A stretch of DNA of 64,000 bases from Eunapius fragilis (lineage: Eukaryota; Porifera; Demospongiae; Spongillida; Spongillidae). Within the stretch, counting starts at the first letter, position 1. Every line of letters starts with the position of its first letter. Under the pieces are notes generated by a model. The model made no database searches, was not told the DNA's origin, and saw only the letters and a list, made by a program, of their open reading frames with translations. Positions 691 to 49,528 of the stretch are shown here, piece after piece. The translations under genes and the position numbers were made by a program. The DNA is taken from positions 526,375 through 590,374 of the forward strand of contig OY811972.1 in assembly GCA_963681505.1 (NCBI GenBank). The letters are read 5' to 3'.

Positions 691-985
691 GTCAACTAAG
701 AACTCATAAACGGTCATAGTAACGTCGTGTCCTTCATCCTGATTTTCATCGTGCATGTTTCCAGTAGGTAGCAGTAACTTTTGGCATATTTGACCTTTTG
801 GAACACTTTACTGATAAGACATGACCTTGGTAAAGGACAATTTGGTTGTTGACAAACCACATATTTCAAAGTGAAATCCATTAATTATGGCTGGATTGGT
901 GAGTATTGCAGTAATGGTGCTTCTCTGATTATCCTGTAGTTCTGGGAACTCGTCATGCAGCTGGGCCTTTCCATCAGCCACATCC
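690..985 (-). pseudogene. C-terminal fragment of unrecognised FPEL/VDYI protein family
   Basis: Read on the minus strand this encodes the motifs EFPELQDNQRSTI and INGFHFE, then (after frame changes) KVTATYWK, DVTMT and EFLVDYI. The same motif series occurs at 36.3-36.6 kb and 52.2-52.5 kb, so this is the 3' part of a multi-copy family. I do not recognise the family and no function is assigned. The reading is broken by at least one frameshift in the CSK-K segment and lacks its 5' part, which is replaced by the satellite array starting at about 985. It is most simply a decayed, truncated copy. Confidence 0.55.
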
Positions 986-3900: not shown

Positions 3901-4370
3901 GATAAAGATGCACTCTTTAGAGAAAGAGGACACCTTACTGGTACCTCTCATCGATAAAGATTCCTACACCACTTGGTTGCCATATCAACACCTTGGTAGT
4001 AAGATAGTCAATTTTTTCCCATAGAGATGTATGGGAGGGAACCACTAATCTATTTGCTTTGTATAGTCACACTAAAGGGTCTATAGATAAGGAGGCACTA
4101 TTTATCGAAACAGGACACCTTACTCGTTCCTGTCATTGATATAGATTCCTACTCATCTTGGTTGCCATATTAACACCTTGGTAGTAAGTTAGTCAATTTT
4201 TTCCCATAGAGATGTATGGGCGGGATCCACTAATCCATTCGCTTCGTATAGTCACACTAAAGAGTCTATTAATAAGGATGCACTGTTAAGAGAAAGAGGA
4301 CACCTTACTGGTACCTCTCATCGATAAAGATTTCTACACAACTTGGTTTCCATATCAATACCTTGGTAAG
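985..4370. repeat. Satellite array, ~185-bp unit, about 18 copies
   Basis: The phrase GATGTATGGGCGGGAACCAC recurs near 990, 1178, 1346, 1534, 1721, 1909, 2096, 2283, 2467, 2654, 2917, 3103, 3287, 3472, 3656, 3839, 4026 and 4210, usually 183-188 bp apart. One interval (2654-2917) is about 263 bp and holds a partial unit. Units carry point differences and short indels. Two neighbouring dimers, 1721-2095 and 2096-2466, are almost identical to each other, indicating a ~375-bp higher-order duplication. Short open frames in the array come from the repeat itself and are not taken as genes. The array ends directly before the transposase exon at 4373. Confidence 0.93.
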
Positions 4371-4372
4371 AA

Positions 4373-5190
4373 TGCCAGCACCATGCACAGTTATGATGAA
4401 GAGTACTTGCTTTTGAGGGACATGGAGGTTCATGATAACCAAGCAGGATCTTGTACTCAAGATGATGCTATTTTATCAGACCCTGACTTTAGTTATGATA
4501 GTCAAGCAGATGATACTATGAGTATTGCAAAATCTCCTCCTACTGGATTTGCTGTTCCGGAGGTGTGTGCGATTACATACAAGCAGTGCAAAGTACTAAA
4601 AGAAGACAATACTAAACCGTTAATAACAATTGACGTTTTGACTCTATCAGACGATGCATTTGCACAAGATGATGAAAAAGTCAAATTTTATACCGGTTTA
4701 CCCAATTATGGTACACTGAAAAACGTGTAGTTACATAAGATAGAAAAAAGATCCAAATTGAGTACGTTTCAACAAACTTTGCTCATACTGATGAAACTCA
4801 GACTTGAATTACCGCAACCGGATTTGGCCTATCGATTTGGCATTTCTCAATCTGGTGTATCAAGGCTATTCAATGCATGATATGCATAATAATGGCCAAG
4901 CGTCTTGAATGTTTTATTATTTGGCCCAATAAACTAGAATTGACAACATCTTTACCAATTGTCCTCAGAAAATTTTATGAAAAATGCACATGCATCATTG
5001 ATTGTACAGTTGAGATCTTAATAGAGAGACCTTCAAATCTGCTTACTAGAGCACAAACATGGAGCAATTGTAAGCAACACAAAACAATAAACGTGTTGAT
5101 TGCCATAACTCCACAAGGCACTGTTTCATTTATTTCACAAGCTTGGGGTTGTGGCGGACTGACTAATTATCACCTCCTTAGTGTGTGACT
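4373..5190 (+). pseudogene. ISL2EU/IS4EU-type transposase (HTH + DDE), decayed
   Basis: The first block (4383-4730) is acidic and ends in the conserved-looking stretch VKFYTGLPNYGTL. After a stop the next block reads KLRLELPQPDLAYRFGISQS, a helix-turn-helix typical of transposases of the DDE_Tnp_4 group. After a further frame change comes RLECFIIWPNK, then IIDCTVEILIERPSNL, TWSNCKQHK and ITPQGTVSFIS, the first-aspartate region of that catalytic domain. The later acidic residues are missing because the frame ends at 5188. A splice acceptor (TGCCAG) precedes the first block, so an upstream DNA-binding exon may have existed. Family assignment is from recalled motif similarity. Confidence 0.75.
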
Positions 5191-5524
5191 GTATGATTAC
5201 TTACGTAATAGGGAAATTCCCCTGTATGGGTCCTTTGTGCGCAGGCCTCTGAAGCCCTGCGCAGCAGCTGGCCTTTGCGCTGGGGAGGCGCTTTGTGTGC
5301 ATGACAATTACTGTTGTGTGTATGACAATGTCTTTGTGTGTGAGCATTTCACTATATATATGGTGAGGTGCTGTGTAATGATATAGTCAGAGTGATATGA
5401 ATCAAAGGGCCAAGAGTCCCCTAGTCGTGTCAGATGGATCGTTGCGCTAGCGTACGTTGGCGATAATCCTTCACAGGGTGGACGTGCATCTGACAAGTTT
5501 ATAACATGCAGCCAGCACAATTAC
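5190..5524. other. Spacer between two convergent transposon genes
   Basis: No coding match is evident. It is GC-richer than its flanks, with repeated phrases such as CCTTTGTGCG and TGTGTGTATGACAAT. It separates the 3' end of the transposase remnant from the 3' end of the minus-strand SWIM/YqaJ remnant. Confidence 0.4.
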
Positions 5525-6690
5525 CTTATCGCACTTAATGTGAACTTCATTATGTCAGGATAACATATGCTCCTTACCAGTGAAATAGAGGGATTTAGAG
5601 GGTCACATCTGGCAACTTGCTTAATCTTTGAAGCTGTAATTCTTAATTCCAGCCCGATATCTGTGCCCCAATTTTGACTTACTTTGCTCTCTTGTTTTTT
5701 CTTCTAAGCATTGTGCTTGTTCATTTGTAACAACAAGGGATTGAAAAAGTATTTGAGACTCTAAAATAAGATCATTTAATGCATGAGATATACATTCTGG
5801 TTTATAATAGCTAGACATTAAGGGTTGCAGCTGTGATGACTGGGAAGTAGGGTTAAAATATCCTGGTACAATAGACAGAATAACTGCTTTTGGATTAACT
5901 TCATGTAGATCCTTGAAGAACGCAGCTAATTCTGCATCATTGGGTGCAGTAACATTGACAGGTGAACAACTAACAGGATGAAGTGGAATCTTCATAGGGC
6001 TTTCAAACTGGATGTCACAGATTTTTGCAAAAGACATCTAAAAAAGTATATATGCATGGTAAGCATACAATTCTGCACTACAGGACATGCAACTTACATC
6101 ACGGTTGTGAGATGGAACAATCCAGCTGCATCTTTCTGAAGTACAAGATGTGTTCATTACCATATCTGCTTTAGCCATTGTGGAGTACAGCAATGCAGCG
6201 ATGTGTGAGCAAGCCTCTCCTGCACCTGCCATGCAATTGCAGTGCGCACAAACAACAGTACCTATAACGCACTCCAACCCAGGGTACAAGTGGTGGATCG
6301 CTCATTTTCTGGCTTTTCTTGACCTGTACAAGTGTGATGCAATAAATGCATGCAGATTTTAATTTCATGCTAATTGTACCTTGGCTGTAAGCAAACATAA
6401 GTCTGCACATATTTTCAGCAATTTAATTGATTCCGCTTACATACATACTTCCAAGCTTCGGTGCTCTTGTAAGCCTTCAGGTCATCTTTAGTGCAGGGAC
6501 TATAGGCGAGAAAAGCAGATATGTACAAATACTGACGTCCGGCCACGACTCAGGGCTTCCAATCCAAACATCCGGAGCGGTAAGATATGGATCCATATCT
6601 AAGTGTAGCATTCTCTCGTATCTCCGTTTGTCTACTGAGAATCTGTACAAGTTGTTGAGTCAGAAGCGAATATGTAACGCCCCTTTTCTG
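5525..6690 (-). pseudogene. SWIM zinc finger / YqaJ-like nuclease gene, truncated
   Basis: On the minus strand, an N-terminal exon (about 6690-6440) contains DPYLTAPDVWIGSPESWP and DDLKAYKSTEAWKYV. A second exon (about 6335-6085) contains the SWIM zinc finger CNCMAGAGEACSH (CxC...CxH) and the following CTSERCSW, ending at a GTAAGT donor after SHNRD. A third exon (6037-5525) runs from MSFAKICDIQFESP to the start of a YqaJ recombinase-like domain (after a small insertion: RITASKIKQVARCDPL, ISLVRSICYP) and reaches a possible donor near 5525. The catalytic part of YqaJ is absent. Frameshifts lie before the SWIM finger and at the YqaJ start. ISL2EU transposons are known to carry a YqaJ gene, which fits the convergent transposase next door. 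Confidence 0.7.
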
Positions 6691-6924
6691 CGGCGCTTTT
6701 ATAGTAATAACATCACATGACTAGCACATGATAATATATTCATTGTGCCGCAGGAATAAGGTCCATACCAACTTACCAAGCTCATATCAGCGGACCTATA
6801 ATAAGTGGGGCGGGTAACTTTAGTCGAGCAAGCGAGTTTATCCCAAACATTCTCCTTACCACGAGCTTCTATGCCTAGTATGACGGTCTTTCAGATAGTT
6901 CAGGGCGTGAAGTTCAGTACTCTA
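6691..6924. other. Short intergenic interval before element X
   Basis: This may be the promoter or terminal region of the ISL2EU-like element, but I could not identify its terminal repeats. Confidence 0.3.
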
Positions 6925-7400
6925 TCTGAGCCTGCGGCAGCAGGTTCAATATAGGATTGATTGAGGGTTGATGAATGTCATTAATAAAACTTCACTAGCG
7001 TCTGGAGGGACAACGGAGAAACGGATTGCTTATCACTTTATTGCGATGGAATGAGAGCACAACGATCTTCAGTTCTACGTTGGTTCCGTGTCATAAAACG
7101 GTGTGGTTATAGAGAAACAAACAATTTCCTGTTTCAGGTGCCCAGTCCTAAAATAATTCTCCATCGTCGTCGTCGTCGTTGTCGTCTTCTTAGGAAAGAT
7201 AACTCGAGCTAGGAACGGTTTTGAAGGACGGGAATAGTACCAATCGTTTTGAAATTTACCGGCACGTTATCCTTACATGTCATATAGACACATATCAAGT
7301 TCTATTTAATAATGTATACGATAGATTTTTATTAATAATTTTAGGTCTCTAACCTGCACTATGGTGTTCCCATCGCAATTGAGTTGTTACTTAGGCTATA

Positions 7401-7796
7401 GTGAAGTCGTTTTTTCTAAAAACGCCTTCGTGTAATCAAAAGAAGAGATCTAAGCAACGAGCGGAATACCTCCAGAAGCAAGACGAGAACAAAGCTAAAG
7501 CCCGAGCGCTCTACAAGGCCAATCCCGAAATTAAGGTCTCCGTACGCGACAGCTACAAGGCCGATCTCGAAAAGAAGAAGGCCTCGAGGAGAACCGTGCT
7601 GCTAAAAGGCGGCGATATGAAGAGGCCTCGAGGGAAACCGCGCTGCTAACAGGCAGAAATACGAGGACAATTCAGCTGCCATTAAAGCATCTAAAAGTAG
7701 TCAGTATTGGAATGACCCCGCTGTCCGATTGGCTAAATGTGCTTCCGAGAGGACGCGGTACCGCAGGGGTCACAGCACTACCACTACCACCCAAAG
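7401..7796 (+). pseudogene. Lys/Glu-rich repeat-protein exon of element X (copy A)
   Basis: The exon encodes KAKARALYKANPEIKVSVRD and SYKADLEKKKASRR, a ~15-residue repeat, then a frame change and NRAANRQKYEDNSAAIKAS, YWNDPAVRLAK and RTRYRRGHSTTTTT, ending at AAAG|GTATGT. Strongly basic with alternating E/K, likely helical. I recall similar proteins linked with PIF1-helicase/Helitron genes in a sponge, but a search is needed. No ATG is found at the start of the open frame (GTG at 7401), and repeats are fewer than in copy B. The frameshift near 7600-7650 suggests decay. Confidence 0.6.
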
Positions 7797-7855
7797 GTAT
7801 GTTATGGCATGTTGTATTAACATTAAAAAGCTGTGCATGCAACATTTGTACAGCA

Positions 7856-7943
7856 TAGTCGGGCGGCCCTACTACCGCGTTTGGTCGGGCTTGTCGCCCT
7901 GCATGCTACCTGACCATACGCGGTAGTAGGGCCCGCCCGACTA
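7856..7943. mobile_element. 88-bp MITE with TAGTCGGGCGG ends and 9-bp TSD
   Basis: The ends are inverted repeats of about 25 bp (TAGTCGGGCGG-CCCTACTACC, one indel between arms). They are flanked by a perfect 9-bp direct repeat TGTACAGCA (7847-7855 and 7944-7952). It lies in the intron of element X. The corresponding intron of copy B (about 18540-18580) lacks it, supporting a later insertion. Confidence 0.85.
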
Positions 7944-8440
7944 TGTACAGCACGGATCTGCACAAAACCATTCACTAAAGCTTACAAAGCATGCATGGTG
8001 ACTCAACTGTGTGTACAGTAGATTGTTTTAATCTGATCAGGCTTCCTTACTTATCGATCTACACTGAGCCATGTAGTTCACTTCTCGAGTTCCCACACTA
8101 TCCATCTATACACAAGTCGGCTACACCTCCATGTTTACTGAGATGGGAGCATTATTACTGGATCAAATTTGACCAATAGATTTTTAGCACAACTGCATGA
8201 CACACATAAACCCCTTCCCTCCCTATCATTTATATGATGGAATTGGACCAATAGAATTATAGCACAGTCTACACACGTATTAAGGCTTTGCAAGGCATAA
8301 AAGTCACTCACCCGCTAAATAGTGCACTTTGCAAACAGAGGTAAAAATTTAATAATACTCTGTGGATTCTAGGCTTTGCGCTTTGCTTGAAAAAAGAAAG
8401 AGGTAAAAATTTAATCATACTCTCTGTCACGTACATGTAG

Positions 8441-8731
8441 GTGGCAGCTGAATACCTCAGAGGTATTTTCACCAACACCAACGAGGGGTCAAAGGAAGAA
8501 GAGGATGACTACATTCATCCTCCGACTCCTCTCCCCATCACCCCGCCACCACCTGAAGCAGCGCTGCCCCCACCACCACCACCAGCGCTGCCCCCCTCAC
8601 CACCACCAGTGCTGCCCCCACCACCACCAGTGCTGCCCTCCTGGCTTGCATGGCTACTGCCACCCTGGCCCGCCTGGTCAGAACAAGCATGGCGAGGAGG
8701 CCGGGGAGGAGGACGTCCCCGAAGAAAATGA
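8441..8731 (+). CDS. Proline-rich exon of element X (copy A)
   Basis: The exon follows an acceptor-like TAG. In one frame it begins VAAEYLRGIFTN, has an acidic patch (SKEEEDDYIHPPTPLPITPP) and then long proline runs, ending GRPRRK. Copy B starts with ATG where this copy has GTG. A second frame is also open through the exon (TTFILRLLSPSPRHHLK...). The splice phase left by the upstream exon (phase 2, if the RRGHSTTTTTQR frame is right) would select that second frame, so the true frame is uncertain. No domain is recognised. Confidence 0.4.
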   Translation: MAAEYLRGIFTNTNEGSKEEEDDYIHPPTPLPITPPPPEAALPPPPPPALPPSPPPVLPPPPPVLPSWLAWLLPPWPAWSEQAWRGGRGGGRPRRK

Positions 8732-8859
8732 GGGCGCGGGCGTAGACACATCATCATACATTGACATTCAACTAATTCTTATTAAAATAATAATAATAAT
8801 TAAATATATTTGATTATTGACTGCGATACTGCTGACAGGGCGAAAAACAACTTATGAAA

Positions 8860-9154
8860 CAAGTAAATAAAAACATTCTCTAACGAGAGAGTTGTTGGTA
8901 TATATGATTGACCAATGGTGGTGTAAAAAGCACGGAAACAAGCGTGACAGAAATTTTAAATGGAAAATTGAAATAGGCCTATATTTAGCACACTCACAAA
9001 ATAACAGCGCATGCCTGAGTAATGGGCTAAATATAGGCCTATTTCAATTTTCCAGTAAAATTTCTGTCACGCTTGTTTCCGTGCTTTTTACACCACCATT
9101 GGTCAATCCTATATACCAACAACTCTCTCGTTAGAGAATGTTTTTATTTACTTG
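8860..9154. repeat. 3'-terminal palindrome P1 of element X
   Basis: Two ~130-bp arms in inverted orientation start and end with CAAGTAAATAAAAACATTC / its complement, with a short central spacer near 9000-9025. Shared inner landmarks are TTGACCAATGGTGGTG and AAATAGGCCTAT. The right end is the 3' terminus of element X. Confidence 0.92.
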
Positions 9155-10061
9155 TGGATATTATAGGGCGTAGGTCTTTTGATGGATGGCTAATTTTCAT
9201 CATGGCTCGGGTGAATGGAATCTCTTCTAAAATATACATGCTATAAGAGCGGATGTTGGGGTCCCCGGTCCCGGTGGCCGCGGGGAGCAAATTGAATGAT
9301 CAGATCGGCTGGTGCGGCGTATAGGGATTCTTCGGTCCCTAGAGCTAAAGTTTAACCGTACTGCGCATGCGTTAGGGGGCATCTGGACCAAAGTACATGT
9401 ATATTAACGCCATTGTGACGTTTCATTATTACCCCCCCCCCCCCTCCCCCATAACGTCATTGATATACAAGGTTGTGGGAGTCCGGACGCCATGTTTTTT
9501 TGTTCAGTACATCTGAAAACGTCACGAGCCTGACCCCCCCCCCCCCCCTCACCCCCCAAACGTCAAGATGACGTTATCTTTTCCAAAATAGTTTGGAGAC
9601 GCCCCCTTAGTAAACGGGTACTATATGTCGCGGTAGGATCTTGTCGGAAGGGGTTCGGCATGCTATATATTAGAATGTAGAGGAGTTTATTAACAGAGCG
9701 CAATAAGTCAAATTAAAATAACATTAATTTGAAGTTATTGAAGTGTTGAATTTGTATTTACCTGCGATGGTTACTTTTGCATAACATTGCTTTATTGTAG
9801 CGCAGTGAAAATACAACTCAAATTCAGACCAATACTTAGTATTTTCCGAGGTCATGCATTGAGAATTCATTTTGAAATACAATGCAAGATGACCGCCGAT
9901 GTATGCTCTTGATATGTTTATCCCATGCTTGTAATGCAGCTACGTCATATGAACGTACGGCATGCACACACCACGATTAAAAGTTCAGAAAGCCTTATAA
10001 TGCATGCATGGTGCAAATAGCTCAGCCGGTAACTTATATAGTTCCAATCATGCGCGCACAT
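9155..10061. other. Intergenic with two poly-C tracts
   Basis: Poly-C runs lie near 9433-9446 and 9533-9547, each beside ACGTCA phrases. From about 9957 onward the sequence is the edge of the inverted duplication that carries the lectin gene. No gene is seen. Confidence 0.5.
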
Positions 10062-10700
10062 TCAGCAATGGAACCCAATAGCATCTATCAGACTTCCAGA
10101 ACGACCGTAGATCCCGGATAGGTTGCAGTTGGTCACATGGAAAGGGCTGCCTCCACCTCCTCCGTACGGTCCGAATGCTCGCCCTCTGTTCGTCACGAAA
10201 GTGAGACTATCCACCCTCGATCCGCTTCGTCCAAAGATTACATTTATTGTTTCACCCACGTCTAGATCGATTTGGGCTGGGCTTCCGCCACCACCGCCGT
10301 AATACCCCGAGGTTTGGCCGTTGCGGTACACAAGTTGAATTGAGTCGATCAACCTGCCAGATCGAATGCGAATCGACCGCACTGCGCCACTTTGAGTGTT
10401 GAAGGGACTTCCTCCTCCTCCACCGTAAAGCGGGCTGTCGGACTGCACCTCCCTGAATGGTTTAAACGCGCGCATAAGATCACTTTAATTAATTAAATCA
10501 AGCGAGCACATTTCCATCATTCCGGCCTTAACTTACGTTACTTCTTCGATCCCCAGCTCCTCTGCAATAGCCACGAACGTTCCATTGGATTTAGTACTCT
10601 TTACAAGATCGGTCTCTTGAGCGACCGAGCTCCAACCAGCATCCCTTGCACTGCAGATCCCAAAGAGAAGAGCTACAACACCCGCGGCGTAGATGAGCAT
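10062..10700 (-). CDS. Secreted jacalin-like lectin, copy A (two exons)
   Basis: Exon 1 is 10700-10537 and exon 2 is 10452-10062, joined across an 84-bp GT-AG intron (donor GTAAGT, acceptor TTCAG); the product is 184 residues. It starts MLIYAAGVVALLFGICSARD, a clear signal peptide. After about residue 55 comes a jacalin-like beta-prism domain with three internal repeats, each with GGGGGSP and each ending in an SGxxxD segment (RSGRLIDSI, RSGSRVDSL, RSGSLIDAI). GxxxD is the sugar-binding motif of mannose-type jacalin lectins, so three sugar sites are possible. A TATA box lies upstream. It differs from copy B at about five residues, including GRLID/GKLID and DLDVG/DLAVG. Likely secreted; role (defence, symbiosis, adhesion) is not shown by the sequence. 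Confidence 0.88.
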
Positions 10701-10755
10701 TCTGTATATTCTGCTTTTTATATTGGAGTGTTCGGTTCTGGAGAACGATCCGCTG

Positions 10756-10763
10756 CTTATATA
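10756..10763 (-). promoter_or_regulatory. TATA box of lectin copy A
   Basis: TATATAAG on the minus strand, about 56 bp upstream of the ATG at 10700. It is conserved at the same distance in copy B. Confidence 0.65.
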
Positions 10764-11091
10764 CATTCGATGCGATGCATATATAGTGCTTGCTTCCGCC
10801 GCTTCTGCTTATCACAGCGCCCGCCGGCTAGCATTCCTCAGGGGCGCGTCAATGCTGCGGGATAAAAAACCATGCATCATGGACAACTTTAGGTATATAA
10901 TCCAATTATAGTCGTTAATGTATGGTATTGCGGTCGGTGTGTACACATGTACCTGGGTACCACATAGACCTTGGCAGCCCTGAGAGACCAGTATACAGAA
11001 GGCGCCACTAGATTAAACGTATGCACATATCATCGTCCCATTGCAGGTCGGTATACGCTGCATGCATGAACGTATTACAATAAACGCAATA

Positions 11092-11094
<3 letters not shown>

Positions 11095-11151
<57 letters not shown>

Positions 11152-11186
11152 CACACACACACACACACGCGCGCGCACACACACAC

Positions 11187-11254
<68 letters not shown>

Positions 11255-11296
11255 GCTCTTCGTATCGCGGTCTAAACCCCCCCCCCCCCCCCCCCC
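11095..11296. repeat. (CA)n microsatellite and 20-C run
   Basis: CA dinucleotides extend from 11095 to about 11253 with interruptions (GCGCGCG, TGCACA), followed at 11277-11296 by 20 C and a T-rich run. The corresponding site in arm B has no such expansion. Open frames made of HT or CV repeats here are artefacts. Confidence 0.95.
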
Positions 11297-12271
11297 TTCT
11301 TTTTTTTTTTGGAAAATCCTGTATCCGCTCCTCCACGCGCACGCAAAAGTAACCACAATTAGCCCCCCCACCCTTAAAAACTTGTCTACGCCTTGAGATG
11401 CATGTGTTTGCAGTTGGCGTCTTGCAAGGCTATACTTAAATTGCCTTGCAGGTGTATAGATGCATGCAGGCACTAATAATTGTTACGTGAGACCCCACCC
11501 CCCTTTGCTGGTGGAGGATATGACCTTTATTAATTAAATCAAATAGCCCGTATATGGGGGCTTACAATTAACCAACCGCAAGCTTCCGCGCGCACGTGGT
11601 AGTGGTCAAATAATGCCCTGGCAACAATGATGGTATTCACGCGTCAAATCGCCCCGGGGGGGGGGGGGGGGGGGGGGGGGGCTCGTGTGTACTGTTCACT
11701 TAGTGTGTTCCGGTTCGTGATTTAAAGTAAAAAGCCACCCGCCCGCATGGGGAATCAAAAAAGGTCCGGACGGGAAGCTATTTTCACTGGCTCACAGTGA
11801 ATTTCGCCATAGCTTCTGACAACAACTTGAGGGTGTTTTGGCCTAGTTGATTACTTTTTGAGCCCTTTTTTTAAGCAAGCGGGATAGTGGTCACGTTTAT
11901 GTTCAACTTGCACACTTGGTGACAGTTGTCCGTCACGTCATTATGTCCCTCGGCAGAGCGCCAAACCACAGTTCTCTAAGCCGGGCGATCTAGATTAGAT
12001 TGCGGTTCGAAGCGGTTTGAGGTCGTCCTCTGTGGGCGACCAATTAATTTAAAAGTTGGTGTTGCGGCTCGTATACATGCAGCTATCATGGGGTACCACC
12101 ATATAAGTGTTGACACCCCTGCGAGCCCATGTGAACGGAAAGCGCCACTATATTGTGTTAAGCATTACACATATATACAATCCCATGCCGCTATACGCTA
12201 CATCAACGAAAAATAAAGAACGCAACTGATAGCAGATAACCATTCATGCATGCAGATAACCACTCATGCAG

Positions 12272-12605
12272 TAGTTGGGCGTAGCCCGACCTTCGCCGCG
12301 TATTGGCGGAAGGTCGGGTACCAAACCCGCACAGTTTTTGTACAAGCTGCAACGGGGATTGCAGTCCAATCAGAATGAATGCAGCATTTCACTGCGGGCA
12401 ATTATCGCCCAATAAACATATTCTGCGCAGCTGGTAGTAAAGCCAATCTGATGTACACTTAATTTATACTATTTTCATTGATCCCGATTGTATAACACGT
12501 CAAAATTCATTGACAAATTGCATAATACGTCTGTACAAAAACTGTGCGGGTTTGGTACCCGACCTTCCGCCAATACGCGAAGGTCGGGCTATAGACGCCC
12601 AACTA
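12272..12605. mobile_element. 334-bp MITE, TAGTTGGGCG ends, 9-bp TSD
   Basis: The terminal inverted repeats are about 80 bp (TAGTTGGGCG... / ...CGCCCAACTA, including CGACCTTCCGCCAATACG). They are flanked by CTCATGCAG (12263-12271) and CTCGTGCAG (12606-12614), a 9-bp duplication with one mismatch. Arm B (about 46340-46390) reads straight through one copy of this site and is therefore the empty site. Confidence 0.9.
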
Positions 12606-12864
12606 CTCGTGCAGCTGTCTACAGTGTGGTGACGGATGCATGTATAGATTAGATTGCGGTTCGAGGGAACCAGAGGTGAGGGGGAGTGGGCGCCAATTAT
12701 AGGGAGGGGGGTGGGGGGGGGGGGGGGGGGCGGGTGGGGTGAGGCGCATGTAAGTATAAATACTGCATGAGACAGGGTTAAATACTTTAACAGGCATTTA
12801 TTACAAGGGGGTCGGGGGTGAGGCGCCATTGAGTCTCAAAGGGGGGGGGGGGGGGGGGAGGGGG

Positions 12865-12975
12865 CCATGATGGGGTACCATACAAGCGTTGACACCCTGC
12901 GAGCCCTGTGTACGGAGAGCGCCACTATTGTGTAAGTATTATACACAATCCCATGCCGTTACGCTGCCCTCGGCT
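12865..12975 (+). repeat. Third copy of a lectin-flank module
   Basis: The phrase order ATGGGGTACCA, TTGACACCC, TGCGAGCCC, GCGCCACTAT, CAATCCCATGCCG matches 12085-12200 in the same orientation and 46425-46545 in reverse. A poly-G run (12840-12858) precedes it. Weaker versions occur near 10955-11070 and 47230-47370. Confidence 0.6.
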
Positions 12976-13299
12976 AGGACAATGCAAGAACACATGAGCG
13001 GGATGGAAACTTTCTGCAGGAAGGAAACTCGTTCCGCAGAGGGACACACCTACCCACCAATGACACAGGGACACATGTACACCTGAGACACACCGAGATA
13101 CACCAGGGACACACTTATCTTATGGAGTGTACACGGCGTTGCGATATAAAAGCCACCCGACATAGGACGGGCAGCATGGAGTAGAATTGAATCTTAAATG
13201 TACTACCTTACATAGGCGGCGGAATGTAAATAAACCTGGGGGGTGGGGGGTGGGGGGGGGGGCGGAAAAGTACAACTGTGGGGGTGGGGGGTGCCCGGC

Positions 13300-13437
13300 C
13301 TTGCGATTGGCCAAATACGAACGGGCGGGGGTGGGGGTGGGGGGTGCTCTTGCGATTGGCCATATACGAACGGGCGGGGGGTGCCCTTGCGATTGGCCAA
13401 ATACGAACGGGCGGGGGGGGGGGGGGGGGGGGGGATG
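13300..13437 (+). repeat. Three GC-rich tandem units ending in poly-G
   Basis: CTTGCGATTGGCCAAATACG followed by AACGGGCGGGG occurs three times in about 135 bp, the last ending in a ~23-G run. Proline- or glycine-rich open frames across it are repeat artefacts. Confidence 0.8.
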
Positions 13438-13639
13438 CAGGGGTCCGCACATTCACTACTGGATGGCTCTTCTACACTAGTCTTGTCCCCAGACCCAGAT
13501 TCCCAACAGCTGCGGGTGGATTACATCACCGCTACGTGGGTCTGGGAAATAAGAACGACGCATTTGTTCCGAGCGTACCAAAACATTGAGACGCATGTGT
13601 ACATACGTAATGACGCTGACGTAACCTTAATAAGGCGTG

Positions 13640-13880
13640 CAAGTTGCCGATTACCTGATTTCAAGTGTAAGGTGTGCCTCAATTAGACATCGAAGTGGGA
13701 ATGTGCGAGCAAGATACGCATATTCAGGAGGTATTTTTGCGCGCAGTTCAAATGGTAGGATTTGCTAACCCACGTCCGCAACAAATGGAGAAAATTAAGA
13801 CCTTCATGCTAGGAAAAGATGTTCAGTTGCCAACTGGATACGGCAAATCAAAGGCGGATACGGAGGAGGGGGGGGGGGGG
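13640..13880 (+). pseudogene. RecQ-like helicase N-terminal fragment
   Basis: The frame reads ...FLRAVQMVGFANPRPQQMEK, IKTFMLGKDVQ, LPTGYGKS. The last is a Walker A (motif I) of a superfamily 2 helicase, preceded by the RPxQ-type Q motif seen in RecQ-like proteins. A few residues usual between GKDV and LPTG are missing. The reading is cut by a G-rich run right after the Walker A, and no further helicase motif follows. Confidence 0.6.
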
Positions 13881-14041
13881 GGTTGCAACCCCCCCTTTCA
13901 TATAAGGTACCTGCCCCTCTTCTGCTAAGCAGCCCCCCCCCCCCCCCCCCCAACCCGCTTTTCGTATCGCGGGTCTAAACCCCCTTTTGAAAAATCCTGT
14001 ATCCGCCCCTACAGTATATTCAGTGCTGCCATACGCGTATC

Positions 14042-14156
14042 CAGTGATGCCGCGATGTATATCGCGATATGTAGAAGTCTATGATATCGCGGTATATCGC
14101 GATAACCGCGATATCATAGACTTCTACATATCGCGATATATATCGCGACAACACTG
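14042..14156. mobile_element. 115-bp hAT-type MITE with perfect 8-bp TSD
   Basis: It begins CAGTGATGCCGCGAT and ends ATCGCGACAACACTG, with near-perfect inverted arms through GTAGAAGTCTATGATATCGC around a short centre. The flanks CGCGTATC (14034-14041 and 14157-14164) are identical. CAG...CTG ends with an 8-bp duplication are typical of hAT elements. Confidence 0.88.
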
Positions 14157-14597
14157 CGCGTATCAGGGGTAGAGCTAAGTGGTGCCGCAGGCGCCTCGTT
14201 CAACTGAGCCAAGCTGGTGTTTAAGAAGGAGAGGGGGAGTCGGTGAGTTTCAATGAAGAGTGTCGGGAGGGAGGGACGGGTGCAATTTGAGGTCGGATTC
14301 GGAGAGGGGGTGAAAAGCTGAAGGGCGTAGCTGGCCTTCGGCCCCCCCAAAACCCAAAGCCCAAAGCCCGAATAATATATATCCTAACCGTCGTATCTCT
14401 GCTCCTTTTATGCGGCAATGATAGCGCTTATTTCTTTCTAATTGTGCGAGATTAGTTCTAAATTTAGATTGCCGTACTATTTTTGGACATAAACATTGAG
14501 GACGCTCGGAACAAGTGCTTCGTTCTTATTTCCCAGACCCGTAGCGGTGATGTAATCCACCCGCAGCTGTTAGGATCTGGGTCTGGGGATGAGACTA

Positions 14598-15337
14598 CTT
14601 CTGTACTACGGCCCTCTCGTCTAGGGCACTCCCTCTTGCCAGCAAGAGGGTGTGGGGGAGCGCTGTAAGCTCCCCCATCCGCCCCAGAAGCTTTCACACT
14701 TTACGCTTCAAATCCCGCTAATACGGCTGACTTTCGAATACATGTACATGCGTAGAGTACCACGATATATCCCCCTCCTCCCCACCGAAAAAAAAAATGG
14801 CCCGTATTTAGACAAGCATATCTTCGTACTCGTTAACGCTTCCATGTACCTGTTAAAACATTTCAGGAAAGAACTGGTACTCCAACAGGATTTGCACGCA
14901 GCTGCGTTCACAATTACGTCGATACGCTCGTATATTTAAAAAAAAAAAAACACGGGCCATTTTTTTCGGCGGAGGGGGGGGTGGGGGGGGGGGGGGTATT
15001 CGCGGTGAACAATATAAGTATAATTGTTCACGCATGTATTTTTAAAAGAAGCAATAGCTAGCGACATACAAGAAAGTTCATTGCGACAACGAAGCCCGAT
15101 GTAGTGAAGCGGTTTATGATCGCTTCAATGTCAACAGGTTGAATATGCGTGCGTACATTTACGTATATTGTATTACATATTACATTTACGTCACTCACAT
15201 GAGATATTATGCCCTACAGTGACTTGTACATGTATAAGGCCGCCCCCGCCCCGCCGCCCCCACACACACACACAAAAGGTATTCTGCGCGTGCGTTACTT
15301 ATAACGCACACGCATCTGTATACCATTAATTAGAATA
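14598..15337. other. Gene-free interval with poly-G tracts
   Basis: It contains G-rich runs near 14975-14997 and a C-rich stretch at 15240-15270. Short open frames have no recognisable content. Confidence 0.45.
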
Positions 15338-15636
15338 CAAGTAAATAAAAACATTCTCTAACGAGAGAGTTGTTGGGATATAGGATTGACCAATGGTGGT
15401 GTAAAAAGCACAGAAACAAGAGTGACAGAAAATTTACTGGAAAATCGAAATAGGCCTATATATTTAGCCCATTACTCAGTCATGCGCTGTTATATTTTAA
15501 GTGTGCTAAATATAGGCCTATTTCAATTTTCCAGTAAAATTTCTGTCACTCTTTTTGTTTCTGTGCTTTTTATACCACCATTGGTCAATCCTATACCCCA
15601 ACAACTCTCTCGTTAGAGAATGCTTCTATTTACTTG
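15338..15636. repeat. 3'-terminal palindrome P2 of element X copy B
   Basis: Same structure and subfamily as P1: CAAGTAAATAAAAACATTC arms, with inner TTGACCAATGGTGGTG and ATAGGCCTAT. The arms are about 130 bp each. Confidence 0.92.
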
Positions 15637-15690
15637 TTTCATAAGTTTTTTTTCACCCTGTCATAGCAGTATATATATCATAGTCAATAA

Positions 15691-16014
15691 TCAAATGTAG
15701 GAAGAGTGTGAACGATTCCCTTTATCTCTTAATGAACAAATAACTTTAATAGCACTGCTGGTGTTGGTGGGGGCAGCGCTGGTGGTGCCGGCGGGGGTGG
15801 TGGTGGGGGCAGGAGCGCCGGCGGGAGCAGCGCTGGTGGTGCTGGCGGGGGTTGGGCTGGTGGTGCCGCTGGTGGTAGTGGTGGCTGGTAGTGGTGGTGG
15901 CAGGAGCGGGGCTTCTGGAGGTGGCGGGGTGATGGGGAGAGGAGTCGGAGGATGAATGTACTCTTCCTCCTCCGACCCCTCGTTGGTGAATAACCCACGA
16001 AGGTCGTCAGCCAT
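15691..16014 (-). CDS. Acidic, proline/threonine-rich protein of element X (copy B)
   Basis: ATG at 16014 directly follows an acceptor-like TTTAG. The product is 107 residues: MADDLRGLFTN, an acidic patch (EGSEEEEYIHPPTPLP), proline runs, a long T/P/A-rich section and KVICSLRDKGNRSHSSYI. No domain is recognised; the composition suggests a disordered protein. A second frame is open from 15998 to 15729 (STFILRLLSPSPRH...) and would be the one used if the upstream basic exon is spliced on in phase. It is therefore uncertain whether this is a separate ORF or the second exon of the basic repeat protein. Confidence 0.45.
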   Translation of the reverse strand: MADDLRGLFTNEGSEEEEYIHPPTPLPITPPPPEAPLLPPPLPATTTTSGTTSPTPASTTSAAPAGAPAPTTTPAGTTSAAPTNTSSAIKVICSLRDKGNRSHSSYI

Positions 16015-16096
16015 CTAAATGTACGTAACAGAGAGTATGATTAACTTTCTTTTTAAAGTAAAGAGCAAAGCCTTAACACATCCACATAGAGTATTA

Positions 16097-16395
16097 CAAG
16101 TGATAAAAACATTCTCTATGCGAGAAGGTTGGTGGTATATAGGAATCAAAGGTGATGGTGGAGTAAAAAGCAAGAGAACAATAAGGCTTCTGATTGAAGA
16201 GGAAAAATGAAATAGACCTATATTAGCAGCATGTCGTCATATTTAAATGTGCGTGCTAATATAGGTCTACTGCATTTTTCCTTTTCAATCAGAAGCCTTA
16301 TTGTTCTCTTGCTTTTTATACCGGCCACCATATGCATCGCCTTTGATTCCTATATACCACCAACCTTCTCACATAGAGAATGTTTTTATCACTTG
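16097..16395. repeat. 3'-terminal palindrome P3 of X'
   Basis: Inverted arms of about 140 bp begin CAAGTGATAAAAACATTCTC. Inner phrases GGTGGTATATAGGAATCAAA and ATAGACCTATATTAGCA differ from P1/P2 and define a second palindrome subfamily, shared with 49316-49528. Confidence 0.92.
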
Positions 16396-16599
16396 TTTCC
16401 TACATTTTTTTGGTGGATTTAGTATTGTATTTATAGTTCTTGAAACTTATGTACCCATGTAGCAGGAATGTCAAATGACAGTTTTATTTTAGAATCTCGT
16501 GGCCATGCAATTTTATGAGGTGTGGGTGTACCATTAAAACACACAGTATTACTATTTAAACAATAAGTACAAGTATTTTATTTATAGCTAATAAAACCC

Positions 16600-16778
16600 A
16601 GGAGTGTGTCATCTTGCATATCCTGGATCAGAATATACTGCTGTATATTCTGGACCAGGATACACAGCAGGTAGAGCAGGTGGAGCCAATCCTGCAGCTG
16701 GCCATGGAACGACTCCTGGACCTGGACGTGGAGCTGGACCTGGATGTGGAACAGGTGGAGCGTCTCCTAGACCTGGAC
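16600..16778 (-). CDS. Low-complexity second exon of X' (Gly-Pro or Arg-Ser frame)
   Basis: Follows a TTCCAG acceptor on the minus strand. Several frames stay open. One is VPGPGLGDAPPVPHPGPAPR-like (Gly/Pro-rich) and ends GPEYTAVYSDPGYAR before a stop and an AATAAA downstream. Another, in phase with the first exon, is RSRSRRRSTCSTSRS-like (Arg/Ser-rich). No domain is recognised. By position it corresponds to the proline-rich exon of X. Confidence 0.35.
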
Positions 16779-17158
16779 CTGGAACAAGTGATTTAAACAA
16801 CCGTTAGTTAAAACATAAAATTCATATCCTCCACTGGCAAGCGAAGGCCATATAATACATCAGACAAAGATTCGATTCCCACTGATCTCACGCGATTATC
16901 AGATAAACCATGCCACAATACGTTGTCGTCAGCAACTTTGACACTATTATCAGATATAAACTATGCAATACAATACACATTATTACTTGTTGTCAGCGAA
17001 CAGCGTGCACACATTTCAAACAGCACTAAAAGTGGAGAGAGACACAATATCTACCGCTGTAACTGTTGCATAAAATATTAATTAATTCCTTCCATTTTAG
17101 CGATACACTATACATGCTATAATTTATGTCCAGATCCAACATTCATGGTGTAACGTAC

Positions 17159-17343
17159 CTTCGGGTGGTCGCTTTGTTGGTACTTTCAGTAGCGCGTTTG
17201 ACACCTTGTCGTGTCTTGTATTGCACTCGCGGATCGTTTGGCATATCGGTATAGGTGTACGAGTGGCTAGTTGTTGCCGGGTTTTTTTTTGTAAGGGCGG
17301 TGGTGTGGGGGAGACACATTGTAATTGGAGCCTCTTGCTTCAC
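17159..17343 (-). CDS. First exon of X' (Thr/Lys-rich, unknown)
   Basis: MKQEAPITMCLPHTTALTKK begins at 17343 and the exon ends TNKATTRR at a GTACGT donor. Its composition is basic and polar. The exon end and position match the basic repeat exon of X, but the repeat motifs are absent. Function unknown. Confidence 0.45.
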
Positions 17344-17839
17344 GTAGACTGTATACCGTAGTATCTGATCGCGTATGTAGTTCCACCAACAGAATTCGAA
17401 AGTTCTGCTATAAGAGGCTATAGCATAGGAATCAATTCGTCAAAACAATCATTATATATGCGATAGTGTCGGGTACTTATGTGTATGGTAGTTTATGGCT
17501 TTCATTTCAAGCTGCATAACGAATGATAGAGTTGAGAGTAACGCACAGGCGTCATGCAGAAAATGATACCTTGAATATTCGTCAGGAGGCCCGCTTCCTA
17601 TAACGTCTTGTCTTCCGCAGCGTACAGGAATATTAAGAATTTGAATCACGCCCATGACACGTGGCTATTATTAAATTATTGCATTTAAAAATAGCTACCT
17701 GATGTAATTGGGTATTTTTAACCGAATACCAAATGAGGTACTATTCGCTTTAGTTAATCGCCCGAACAGTTAGGCGTCTAACTGACACCCGAAGATAACC
17801 TGCGGACGCATCCTGAAGTGATTGGTACACTTGGCGTGC

Positions 17840-18090
17840 TTTACAAACGTTCCTGTCGTGAGTTATATTATCCCGAAGGAAGAAGAAGAATAAGACGACG
17901 GAGGAGAAATTTTAGGTGGGACTGGGTACGGACGATGGGGACGAGTATTTTTGTTCACTAAAAGTACACCGTCTTATGACACAGATACAGTGCAGAAAGG
18001 TTCTCCTTTTTGATATCGCTCGATTGCCACTAAGAGCGAAGTGACCCGACTCTTAAATGTCCCGCTAGACGTGAGTGACGTTTTTATAAT
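17840..18090 (-). promoter_or_regulatory. Promoter-like 5' region shared by X and X'
   Basis: Resembles 19420-19690 and, inverted, 6960-7250: a purine-rich AAGAAGAAGAATAAGACGAC stretch, AGGAGAAATTTTAGG, an ACTGGG-ACG segment and TTATGACAC(A/G)GA boxes in the same order. It lies between the terminal hairpin and the first exon, so it probably holds the element promoter. Inference from conservation only. Confidence 0.4.
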
Positions 18091-18601
18091 GACATTCATG
18101 ATACTGCAGGATTCCTATATGGAACGGCAACCTACTCGCGTAGGTTCCGATTACATTTCTTTTTGCAAAGTGCACTATTCAGCGGGTGAGTGGCTTTTAC
18201 ACCTGGAAAGCCTTAACACGTGCATGTGCAGACTGTGCTATAATTGTATTGGTCCAATTCCATCATATTAATGACAGGGACGGAAGGGGTGTATATGTGT
18301 GTCAGTTGTGCTAAAATTCTATTGGACAAATTTGATCCAGTAAAAATGCTCCCATCTAAACATGGAGGTATAGCCTACATGCAGTTGAATTGTATAGATA
18401 GATAGTGAGGGAGCTAAGGAAATGAACTACATGGCAGCATGTAGATTGATAAGGATATGTTCTCAGGTAAGATGATATCTGTGGACAGGGTATGCAGCTT
18501 TGTGAGTGTGGGCAGAAAATCTGTTTTTTTTTTTCACTACATAAATGTGTGTGCACAGCTTTTTAATGTTAATACAACATGCCATAACATACCTTTGGGT
18601 G

Positions 18602-19270
18602 GTAGTGGTAATTCTGTGACCCCTGCGGTACCGCGTCCTCTCGGCAGCACATTAAGCCAATCGGGACAGCGGGGTCTTTCCAATACCAACTCCTTTCAGA
18701 TGCTTTAATGGCAACTGAATTGTCCTCGTATTTCTGCCTTTTAGCAGCGCGATTTCCCTCAAGGTCCTCTTCATATCACCGCCTTTTAGCTGCAAGGTTC
18801 TCCTCAAGGTCCTCTTCATATCGCCGTCTTTTAGCAGCACGGTTCTCCTCGAGGTTCTCTTCATATCGCCGCCTTTGAGCAGCACGGTTCTCCTCGAGGT
18901 CCTCTTCATATCGCCGCCTTTGAGCAGCACGGTTCTCCTCGAGGTCCTCTTCGAATCGCCACTTTTTAGCAGATCGCTTAGATTCATTATCGGCTTGTAG
19001 CTGTCGCGTGCAGAGGCCTTTCAGTTTCTTTTCGGGAAGCTGTCACGTACAGAGGCCTTCTTTTCGGGATCGGCCTTGTAGCTGTCGCGAAAAGAGGCCT
19101 TCTTCTTTTCGGGATCGGCCTTGTAGCTGTCGCGTACAGAGGCCTTCTTCTTTTCGGGATCGTCCTTGTAGAGCGCTCGGGCTTTAGCTTTGTTCTCGTC
19201 TTGCTTTTGGAAGTAGGCCTATTCCGCTCGTTGCGTAGATCTCTACTTTTGCATTTTTAGAAAACTTCAC
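18602..19270 (-). pseudogene. Lys/Glu-rich repeat-protein exon of X (copy B)
   Basis: On the minus strand it has DENKAKARALYK, two to three SYKADPEKKKAS-type units with RD spacers, then four to five units of RRYEEDLEENRAAQR-type repeats (45-48 bp each), then QKYEDNS and the exon end at CAAAG|GTATGT (18602). It carries more repeats than copy A. Frame changes occur between the two repeat blocks and in the C-terminal part (VPIGLMCCREDA against VRLAKCASERT in copy A). Probably inactive. Confidence 0.6.
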
Positions 19271-19710
19271 TAGCGAAGTTGCACCAAATAGATTTAGTGC
19301 AGGTTAGAGTATTTATACTGCCTAAAATTATAATAAAAATCTATTATATATCATTATTACAATGAACATGACGTGTAAGGATAACGTGCCGGTAAATTTC
19401 GAAGCGATTGGTACTATTGCCGTTCTTCAAAACCGTTCGTAGCTCGAGTTATACCTTCCTACGAAGAAGAAGAAGACGACGACGATGGAGAATTATTTTA
19501 GGACTGGGCACGAGAAACAGGAAATTGTTTCTCTATAACCACACCGTTTTATGACACGGAACCAACGTAGAACTGTAGATCGTTGTGCTATCATTCCATC
19601 GCGATAAAGAGATAAGCGATCCGTTTCTCCATTGTCCCTCCAGACGCTAGTGAAGTTTTATTAATGACTTCATCAACCCTCAATATTGAACCTGCTACCG
19701 CAGGTTCAGA

Positions 19711-20239
19711 TAGCTCGCTGAAGTCATGCATGCTCACAAAATTTAATATAATAAAATAGTTGTACTACCAATAATCTGGGAGCTGAATGATACTTCCGCC
19801 CCCCGTATGGCAAAAGTGGGGGGGGGGGGGGGGGCAAAAGCCCCCTTGCCCCCGTCTCCGCCGCCTATGCCTTCAGTAACTTGTAACTTTCAAAGCTATC
19901 GCTAACGTTGTTGGTCCTCAAGGTTCAATTGCGAGCGCATTAGTGACGTTGTCATAGCGGATTGTGTCCCCCCCCCCCCAAAGACACAATCCGCCAGCGG
20001 ATTCTGTCCAGGGGGGCATGTTCTGCTAGCGGATTCTGTCCCTCCTCCGCAGAATGTGTCCCCCCCCCCTCCTCCAACAATAAATCCATTGCGTTTGATT
20101 AGCGAGCGTGTAGGCATGCAGCTTCGTATGGTGAAATGGTCGTCATACAAACGCTCGGATACATATTAATTATATACAAGAAAAGCTGGAAATGGTTCAA
20201 TCAAACAATAAATCAGTATCTCAGTCACACACACAGGAA
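19711..20239. other. Intergenic with poly-G and TCTGTCC repeats
   Basis: A 17-G run lies near 19818-19834 and C-runs near 19969-19979 and 20050-20060. The phrase GCGGATT(C/G)TGTCC occurs repeatedly. The segment 20085-20205 (TTGCGTTTGATTAGCGAGCG...) is repeated at 33618-33735 beside another minisatellite. Confidence 0.5.
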
Positions 20240-20400
20240 GAGTAGTGAGGCCAGGGGCAACAGAGCCATAGTGAGGCCAAGGGTAACAGAGCCATAGTGA
20301 GGCCATGCAGGGGTAACAGAGCCATGCATAGTGAGGCCATGCAGGGGGTAACAGAGCCATGCATAGTGAGGCCATGCAGGGGTAACAGAGCCATCCCAGC
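20240..20400 (+). repeat. TAGTGAGGCC minisatellite, first locus
   Basis: Units of about 27-35 bp, of the form ATAGTGAGGCC(ATGCA)GGGG followed by TAACAGAGCC, repeat about six times. The same unit makes the larger array around 29-33.6 kb. Confidence 0.9.
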
Positions 20401-21055
20401 AAAAAATCCGTACAACGAACCGTTGCAACGATACACGCCGATCGTAAAAGTAGCACGATTTTCAGCAATAACGATTTCATTTGATTTTATTTGATTGGAC
20501 AGGTATCGTGCAAATGCAGCAATTATAAACGTTTCATTATATAGATTTCGATCATTCGCGATCAACAAAGAACGGCTTTATCAACGTTCGTCCACGGCCG
20601 TGTCTGAGCGATACATGATGAAACTTATCACGATCGTTTTACTTCACTAAAAGAAAGTGGCATATCAGGCTGCACCTGTGGATTCGTCATCTGCAGTTAG
20701 TTACAGTCATGTTATAGTACGATCGTAGATAGTCTTAAATGAGTAAATTGCTATCACGTTATAGCACGATCTTGAATAGTCTTGTTGTAGTCACGTTCAA
20801 GTACGATCGTATACGATAGTATAAATTCTTGATGCTACCATGCACTGTATTCTATAATTAGTTCTAAATAAATTCGTATCTGTTCCAGTGTAATCGTAAG
20901 TTATTCTGATCATAGTTCGTACATTATTTTTAATGCATCCACCACGATGTAGTATTGCCTGCAAAGAATTAAACAGTATAGAACAAGAGAGGTCACAGGG
21001 GGAAAAAATTAATAACTAACATGTACACACTCCTACAACACAATGATAACACAGT
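20401..21055. other. Gene-free, AT-rich interval
   Basis: Phrases such as ATCACGTTATAGCACGATC occur twice near 20750-20810. No coding signal is seen before the BEN gene stop at 21056. Confidence 0.45.
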
Positions 21056-28897: not shown

Positions 28898-29089
28898 TTC
28901 CTAACCACCACTTCACAGCAATCTGAAATTCATTGGGCTCTGGGTGCAAGTTAAGGCCTGGGGAGGGGACAATAGTGAGCCACGAAGCAGCATGACGAGA
29001 TGAAATTGATAGCAAGCGAGCTCTATAAGCAGGAGAAGAGATGTGAAACAGCTGCCGAAGCTGCTGGTCTTCAATTTTTCCGGACAGGG
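28898..29089. other. Flank between retroelement tail and minisatellite
   Basis: No coding match. The minisatellite starts gradually at about 29090. Confidence 0.4.
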
Positions 29090-29429
29090 GTAACAGTCAG
29101 AGCCATAGTGAGGCGGGCCAAGGGTAACAGAGCCATAGTGAGGCCATGCAGGGGTAACAGAGCCATGCATAGTGAGGCCATGCAGGGGTAACAGAGCCAT
29201 GCATAGTGAGGCCATGCAGGGGTAACAGAGCCATGCATAGTGAGGCCATGCAGGGGTAACAGAGCTATGCATGGTGTCATGGGATAATTGGCACCCCCGT
29301 TCCAAATATCCTAGGATTCTTGGCACCCCCATTCCAAAATTCCTACGGGATTTTTGGCATCCTTTAGGATTTTCGGTCCCCTCGTGTTTGAGGTGATTAT
29401 TAGTGTGATTGTAGCGAGACGATAGAAAA

Positions 29430-33600: not shown

Positions 33601-33735
33601 CCCCCTTCCCCAACATTGCGTTTGATTAGCGAGCTGAGCGTGTAGGCATGCAGCTTCGTATATGGTGAAATGGTCGCCAAACGCTCAGATACATATTAAT
33701 TTTAAAAGAAAAGCTGGAAATGGATCAATCCAACA
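33601..33735. repeat. Minisatellite-linked flank, copy of 20085-20205
   Basis: TTGCGTTTGATTAGCGAGC, TGTAGGCATGCAGCTTCGTA and AAAGCTGGAAATGG match the 20-kb locus in the same orientation, but here the flank follows the array whereas there it precedes it. Confidence 0.8.
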
Positions 33736-47537: not shown

Positions 47538-47593
47538 GCAGCAGATCGTTCTCCAGAACCGAACACTCCAATATAAAAAGCAGTATACACAGA

Positions 47594-49239: not shown

Positions 49240-49315
49240 CATTCCACAGCTATGCTTTAACCCTAGAAACTCTCAAATAGAATTAAAAATAGAATTAAAA
49301 CATTTTAACTTAGAA

Positions 49316-49528
49316 CAAGTAATAAAAACATTCTCTACACGAGAAGGTTGGTGGTATATAGGAATCAAAGGTGATGGTGGTGTAAAAAGCAAGGGAACAA
49401 GGCTTCTGATTGAAAAATGAAATAGACCTATATTAGCAGCATGTTGTCATATTTAAATGTGCGTGCTACTATAGGTCTATTTCATTTTTCCTTTTCAATC
49501 AAAAGCCTTGTTCCCTTGCTTTTTATTG
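49316..49528 (-). repeat. Palindrome P4, right arm truncated
   Basis: Same subfamily as P3 (GGTGGTATATAGGAATCAAA, AATAGACCTATATTAGCA). The left end is CAAGTAATAAAAAC preceded by A, as at the 3' terminus of X'. The opposite arm stops after TTGCTTTTTAT, so this is a detached or truncated 3' end. Confidence 0.8.

Follow-up and report, generated by a model that had tools for sequence, protein, structure and literature searches.

A Helitron-like family of the sponge Eunapius fragilis with a 5′-terminal hairpin and a palindrome of about 295 bp at its 3′ end

What marks the end of a Helitron whose last 295 bp or so form one long palindrome? Recognition of the 3′ end is a central gap in the biology of these transposons, because missed ends cause gene capture. 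The question is raised by a 64,000-nucleotide stretch of the Eunapius fragilis genome (contig OY811972.1, here C2:526375-590374; hereafter the window), which we compared with 219 Mb of the genome on 24 contigs. An original prediction, made from the letters of the window, had placed here three Helitron-like elements with an A/TC 5′ junction, a 5′ hairpin and a palindrome of about 300 bp ending CTTG/T (the slash marks a junction). Its positions proved correct almost to the base. We find that these elements, E1, E2 and E3, are Helitrons that fit no known subgroup cleanly. As a candidate terminator, their palindrome exceeds the usual 16-20 bp hairpin several-fold in length; it lies exactly at the end and occurs in two families with many copies.

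Three elements with common ends and their RepHel-coding relatives

E1 (6925..9154, plus strand, 2230 bp) is a non-autonomous element of family I and runs from TC to CTTG between a flanking A and a flanking T. Its junctions read CAGTACTCTA / TCTGAGCC...ACTTG / TGGATATTAT. Folding gives a 5′-terminal hairpin at 6927..6948 with a 9-bp stem and a 4-nt loop; the same type of hairpin is present in A1, the autonomous copy to which E1 was aligned, with z scores of -5.0 and -6.3 at two lengths. The 5′ copy of a 12-bp asymmetric inverted repeat, ATATAGGATTGA, follows at 6949..6960 (element position 25). A frame-shifted remnant of a basic-repeat exon spans approximately 7395..7796 and is homologous to exon 1 of A1. 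Directly 3′ of it stands the donor-like sequence AAAG/GTATGTT, a putative splice site. The proline-rich block at 8441..8731 is the counterpart of the A1 region 3′ of the RepHel frame. The element closes with its palindrome (8860..9154, 295 bp), and the inverted copy of the 5′ repeat, TCAATCCTATAT, lies inside it at 9103..9114, 41 nt from the 3′ end.

E2, the second non-autonomous family I element, occupies 15338..19710 on the minus strand and measures 4373 bp with the nested E3, or 2319 bp without it. Read on the minus strand from 19710 to 15338, its junctions are CAGCGAGCTA / TCTGAACC...CTTG / TATTCTAATT. It has a folded 5′-terminal hairpin (19687..19708), a basic-repeat exon made of YEEDLEENRAAQRRR repeats (approximately 18590..19260) and a 299-bp palindrome (15338..15636). 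E1 and E2 have the 5′ block, the basic-repeat exon, the proline-rich block and the palindrome in common, with 74-91% identity over five main shared blocks. E3 (16097..18150, minus strand, 2054 bp) is a non-autonomous element of family II that sits inside E2 at GTAA / TAATACTC. Its junctions, from 18150 to 16097, are AGAAATGTAA / TCGGAACC...CTTG / TAATACTCTA, its hairpin folds at 18125..18149 and its palindrome covers 16097..16395 (299 bp). E3 is a diverged relative of E1 and E2, to which it is 66-69% identical along some 280 bp of its 5′ side and 68% identical in the palindrome. The 5′ hairpin stems of the three elements are 9-10 bp long, and their palindromes fold into 132-135 pairs under RNA parameters.

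At position 25 (31 in E3), just 3′ of the hairpin, stands the asymmetric repeat, which reads ATATAGGATTGA in family I (12-13 bp) and ATATAGGAATC in family II (11 bp). Its inverted copy lies inside the palindrome, 41-42 nt from the 3′ end. Shuffling the 5′ part 300 times gave matches of at most 10-11 nt; the real match (11-13 nt) was longer in 6 of 7 cases, one of the seven tests being a composite of two loci. E2, the 5′ end of which does not have that stretch, has no such repeat (best match 7 nt).

A longer relative with the same ends had been called for, and we found one at C2:13898179-13910107. This family I copy, A1, is 11,929 bp long and has both ends as in E1 and E2. Between its basic-repeat exon and its 3′ region lies an open frame of 1995 amino acids (P0001), in which Pfam finds DUF6570, Helitron_like_N, PIF1, Pif1_2B and OTU domains; an endonuclease domain is not among its 12 Pfam matches. 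Residues H827, H829, Y968, Y972 and K1286 are invariant in all eight aligned relatives, and we take them to be the HUH histidines, the two tyrosines and the Walker lysine, respectively. The helicase part matches the Helraiser structure 7lcc and PIF1 structures. The nearest relatives of P0001 are P0002 (91% over the searched region) and P0004 of Ephydatia muelleri (89%). Interval 2262-9297 of A1 is missing from E1 and interval 2058-9204 from E2 (positions of the joined loci L069 and L070). Therefore, by comparison with this one autonomous copy, E1 and E2 are internal-deletion derivatives of family I that have lost the RepHel exon.

The original prediction held that the encoded proteins are not replication enzymes, which was misleading, since the basic exon seems to be part of the replicase. 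The two proline-rich frames tested had no Pfam match, and the block remains a candidate exon. The basic YKADPEKKKAS exon resembles an N-terminal extension of a related Helitron replicase. In this relative, P0009, basic YEANPDAKKASS repeats form the N-terminal part of a single polypeptide that also contains RepHel, and the basic-repeat exon of E1, E2 and A1 seems best read as an N-terminal exon of the replicase, joined by putative splicing.

RepHel matches with a matching 5′ end upstream and a palindrome downstream occur at six places, four of family II (C1:1777642, C1:1405918, C1:11855656 and C3:7870947) and two of family I (C2:13901780 and C1:5626604). Eight more RepHel matches have one of the two ends. 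This pairing covered 66 of 91 RepHel matches, 72 of 100 listed family I 5′ ends, 12 of 40 family I palindrome loci, and 38 of 40 each of the family II 5′ ends and palindromes. The suggestion of a non-autonomous lineage with a PIF1/Rep partner is thus borne out as far as partners with the same ends exist; that they move E1-E3 in trans is a probable consequence. At least one different RepHel group is also present in the genome (five matches in frames of 634-1277 amino acids, with E values near 1e-62 to 1e-63 for Helitron_like_N).

Copies, boundaries and insertion site

Allowing up to two mismatches, a 26-nt pattern of the 5′ end has 901 genome sites (480 + 421), and a 26-nt end of the palindrome arm has 3482 (1736 + 1746); both reversed controls gave 0. 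We paired the exact matches listed for the first 16.1 Mb of C1. A palindrome or arm lies within 16 kb downstream of 31 of the 35 exact 5′ ends, and upstream of only 6; random placement gave a mean of 2.0 and a maximum of 10 downstream pairs in 1000 trials. In the same region, 36 of 66 palindromes or arms do not pair as nearest neighbour with any exact 5′ end. We read three of the 36 (L072-L074): each is a complete element, 768-777 bp long, whose 5′ end has diverged. They are about 98% alike, and their flanks are largely unrelated. They retain little beyond about 370 bp of the 5′ end and the palindrome. The expected tie of the palindrome to the 5′ hairpin therefore holds downstream of most exact 5′ ends and in these three.

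The boundaries are constant, as expected. The base before the 5′ end is A in 32 of 32 distinct flanks, and the base after the 3′ end is T in 30 of 32 (one A, one C); the count leaves out near-duplicate loci, 28 inner-side readings and arms too diverged for the filters. In a set of 30 palindrome loci, four pairs of which share a flank, T follows in every case and the end is CTTG in 28, with one CTAG and one CGTG. The interior of the element lies upstream, in sense, at all 30, two that share one flank having only about 100 bp of it. For L055, L058 and L067, the end read belongs to a second arm or palindrome; each of these loci has another family I palindrome, complete or partial, close by. The family I copy L042 ends in CTAG, the Helitron1-type tetranucleotide, rather than CTTG. 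Family II 5′ loci start at TCGGAACC in 6 of 6 cases, preceded by A in five and by C in L080, where most of the initial bases of this 5′ end are repeated in front of it, as though by insertion or tandem duplication.

Empty sites agree with a lack of target-site duplication, another feature that had been foreseen. Of 40 loci scored, 37 match the joined flanks of A1 through the junction at 98-100%; the length is the same in 36 and differs by one base in the other. The other three of the 40 are empty sites of L073 (99%, no length difference). Therefore, in these two independent insertions, the element entered between A and T, and nothing was duplicated or lost. Four weaker matches (87-88%) cross the joined-flank junction of L074 among 40 candidates scored, and among 40 candidates scored there was no full empty site for E1, E2, L072, C3 or C19. 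The E3 site was compared with E1-like copies that do not carry E3, because the neighbouring duplicate also carries it, and the two agree (TTTAA / TAATACTC against GTAA / TAATACTC). A site five bases away, as the pair L056/L057 would place it, was rejected on the six family II starts at TCGGAACC.

The arrangement of E1, E2 and E3 recurs at C2:486806-499763, 46-48 kb upstream, and is 96.9% alike over window positions 16096-19757. It is a segmental duplication and not a set of independent insertions.

Arms and loop of the palindrome

The 294-nt palindrome of A1 folds as DNA at -158.3 kcal/mol, against a mean of -24.75 in 200 shuffles (z = -36). In the majority family I sequence, the outer stem is perfect over 129 bp and its outermost pair contains the terminal nucleotide. 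Within a copy, the two arms are on average 98.9% identical in 31 family I copies and 97-100% identical in 5 family II copies; the same arm compared between the two families is 85.3% identical. Gaps are ignored in these identities, and four duplicates as well as E1 itself (L039) are excluded.

Changes on both sides of a pair were seen in 34 of 127 pairs among 15 sequences, 14 of them distinct. In the same 15 sequences, 98.3% of cells are paired, compared with 91.6% in shuffles and 40-45% in slid versions. Individual copies decay arm by arm after insertion, and lineages change both arms together. This co-change is explained equally by selection for pairing and by correction of one arm from the other.

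The loop of the palindrome also occurs in inverted form. In a family II copy beside a RepHel match (C22:1323840-1324165), the 47-nt loop is the exact reverse complement of the loop of another copy, L086, and an opposite-strand match of 285 nt between the two palindromes is 100% identical. Since only the 40 best candidates were scored, the orientation counts are biased by the query: with the flipped C22 query, family II gave 30 flipped and 10 unflipped candidates, and the unflipped E3 palindrome brought up 2 flipped copies among 40. Beside RepHel matches, flipped family II copies stand at C22, C13:5069470, C9:9032662, C9:6525114 and C9:6359804, and unflipped ones at C1:1784382, C1:1412664, C1:11862397 and C3:7877642. 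Among 41 family I palindromes, the flipped query gave 2 flipped, 38 unflipped and 1 undetermined, and the unflipped query gave none flipped among its own 41. Loop inversion is therefore real and has occurred in both families, and it is rare in family I.

Classification and the probable role of the palindrome

With the Helitron superfamily, the group shares a RepHel with a presumed HUH motif, two tyrosines and a PIF1-type helicase, which is found in the autonomous relative and not in E1-E3, and insertion without target-site duplication (37 loci for A1, 3 for L073, and the E3 site against E1-like copies). The Helitron-like identity proposed at the outset is thereby upheld. Like Helitron1, the elements start with TC and insert between A and T. 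Their 3′ end is CTTG (28 of 30 loci) and not CTRR. Where Helitron1 has no 5′ hairpin and, at the 3′ end, a hairpin of 16-20 bp set 10-12 nt in, they have a 9-bp 5′ hairpin and a 129-bp stem at 0 nt. The palindrome and the CTTG end are indeed as unusual as the original prediction had them, falling outside both the Helitron1 and the Helitron2 pattern.

The bat element Helraiser, in the available part of its description, resembles the group in its RepHel with HUH-Y2 and PIF1-type helicase, 5′ TC, A/T insertion without duplication, and a 3′ hairpin (PMC4778049). It differs in ending CTAG (CTRR) instead of CTTG, in having no 5′-terminal hairpin, and in its 19-bp palindrome 11 nt from the end, which acts as a terminator, against about 295 bp at 0 nt here. 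The 3′ hairpin of a typical Helitron is given as 16-20 bp in the accessible portion of PMC6544945. In the excerpts available for Helitron2 and FoHeli of Chlamydomonas, Fusarium and others (PMC3627910; PMC5148889), a 5′-terminal hairpin, the lack of an endonuclease domain, and a short asymmetric inverted repeat that changes in step between relatives are all shared with the present group. There, the 5′ repeat is 0-2 bp from the end; here it follows the hairpin at position 25, its 3′ copy is 41-42 nt in and within the palindrome, the target is A/T and the palindrome is giant. A/T insertion and TC ends, together with a 5′ hairpin and displaced inverted repeats, thus blur the divide between Helitron1 and Helitron2. 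Helentrons and their non-autonomous HINEs (DINE-1) show, in the portion of PMC4067079 available, deletion derivatives sharing the ends of RepHel elements, an OTU cysteine protease (there an additional open reading frame) and subterminal inverted repeats. They differ in an AP-endonuclease fused to RepHel (none among the 12 Pfam matches of P0001) and in a TT target, and their 3′ palindromes are 5-10 bp long, as given for mite HINEs in the same source.

Among the titles and abstract openings listed for the Helitron, Helentron, foldback and sponge literature, none described a Helitron with so large a palindrome; Repbase and most subscription papers lay outside this search, and a sponge consensus may well exist.

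We consider it quite likely that E1-E3 are non-autonomous Helitrons that have lost their RepHel exon and in which the palindrome acts as an enlarged terminator, and that they are moved in trans by RepHel of families I and II. Helitrons are described, in the parts available of PMC4778049 and PMC5876387, as being nicked at the 5′ end, displacing a strand, terminating at the 3′ hairpin and passing through circle intermediates. Following this biochemistry, RepHel coded elsewhere would recognise the two retained ends, nick at A/TC, and let its helicase peel one strand off. The 295-bp palindrome would stand in for the usual short subterminal hairpin: once displaced, the strand may form a hairpin of about 129 bp that is paired right up to the terminal nucleotide, replication would halt there, and the second tyrosine would cut after CTTG. 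Passage through a hairpin or cruciform would also allow each arm to serve as the template for repairing mismatches in the other. This would explain why the arms are about 99% complementary despite the drift between families, and why the loop is occasionally inverted; correction with an occasional flip is probably the simplest reading of the co-change. The RepHel-coding relatives and the loop-inverted isomers make termination, arm correction and any hairpin intermediate directly testable.

Several points weigh against this reading. Counts for 28 main-subfamily copies give 20 changes in the left arm only, 20 in the right arm only, 9 on both sides and 2 one-arm deletions, and this excess of one-sided changes means that complementarity is not maintained after insertion. 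The co-change of the arms can equally stem from selection for pairing or from chromosomal gene conversion unrelated to transposition. A terminator need not be so long. The closest protein, P0002, is annotated without a basic N terminus, so the link of exon 1 to the replicase rests on P0009 and the splice-like sites. Finally, exon 1 of A1 contains an in-frame stop, and A1 itself may therefore be inactive.

It is doubtful that these are ordinary Helitrons in which a 3′ hairpin expanded by accident and stayed as a functionless palindrome, through hitch-hiking or neutral conversion between arms. The independent decay of the arms fits this, and loop inversions indicate that sequence is exchanged between arms. 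Length and position, however, have been conserved in both families, between which the arms differ by about 15% with gaps ignored, and the palindrome is kept even in the derivatives of 768-777 bp.

We also find it unlikely that the palindrome primes its own copying in a rolling-hairpin-like manner. In that model, the displaced strand would fold back at its 3′ palindrome, and its paired 3′-OH would prime the second strand as in parvoviruses; when the closed end is resolved, one arm would be re-copied from its partner and the loop would be inverted. The terminal nucleotide is base-paired, as self-priming would have it, and flip isomers exist, most of the family II candidates found with the flipped query being flipped. 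Parvovirus terminal hairpins likewise are terminal palindromes with loops in both orientations and arms kept alike, and obligate hairpin transfer there gives an even mix of flips. Family I is far from such a mix, and the rarity of its flips is evidence against obligatory hairpin transfer. The present palindrome also stands at one end only, next to a Helitron-type RepHel, and no virus genes were seen. Ordinary recombination between long perfect arms inverts loops as well. No tail-to-tail dimer sharing one palindrome was seen; of three candidates with short context, the one that was read, at C6:6611499, has an unrelated flank and was rejected as a chance similarity. Short context on both sides is also present at C16:1764674 and C8:1672798, and at C1:5633214-5633876 two family I palindromes lie tail to tail about 50 bp apart. 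That a terminal-hairpin step evolved within the Helitron lineage, re-copying arms and flipping loops as a bridge from rolling-circle to parvovirus rolling-hairpin replication, strikes us as improbable.

A separate foldback element or miniature inverted-repeat transposable element (MITE) inserted at the 3′ end of some Helitrons would account for about twice as many palindromes as 5′ ends, for those that are no exact 5′ end's nearest partner and for a truncated family II palindrome with no recognisable 5′ part at 49315..49525 (sequence comparison, strand not assigned), but it can be dismissed as highly implausible, because the palindrome coincides with an element end on its right side only, as the empty sites show, and without target duplication, the interior lies upstream in sense at 30 of 30 loci, the three unpartnered palindromes read belong to complete elements, and each family has its own diverged palindrome in the same place.

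A few further features of the window were noted. The loop of the palindrome at 49315-49525 may be in the flipped orientation. An inverted repeat of 92 bp, hairpin-like, lies at 7854-7945 in the intron-like part of E1 and is altered in A1 (at about 2063-2145 of L069). An Rfam search over 6000-20500 listed 50 matches, all under the gathering scores of their families and mostly microRNA-like, the kind of hit to be expected from long hairpins. Two jacalin-like lectin genes (Pfam Jacalin) at 10037-10923 and 47371-48253 are inverted relative to each other, 97-98% alike and 36-37 kb apart. A unit of about 185 bp is tandemly repeated across 893-4425, and a minisatellite of 26-34 bp (CATAGTGAGGCC..GGGGTAACAGAGC) recurs at 20243-20395, 29070-29303 and 32810-33637.

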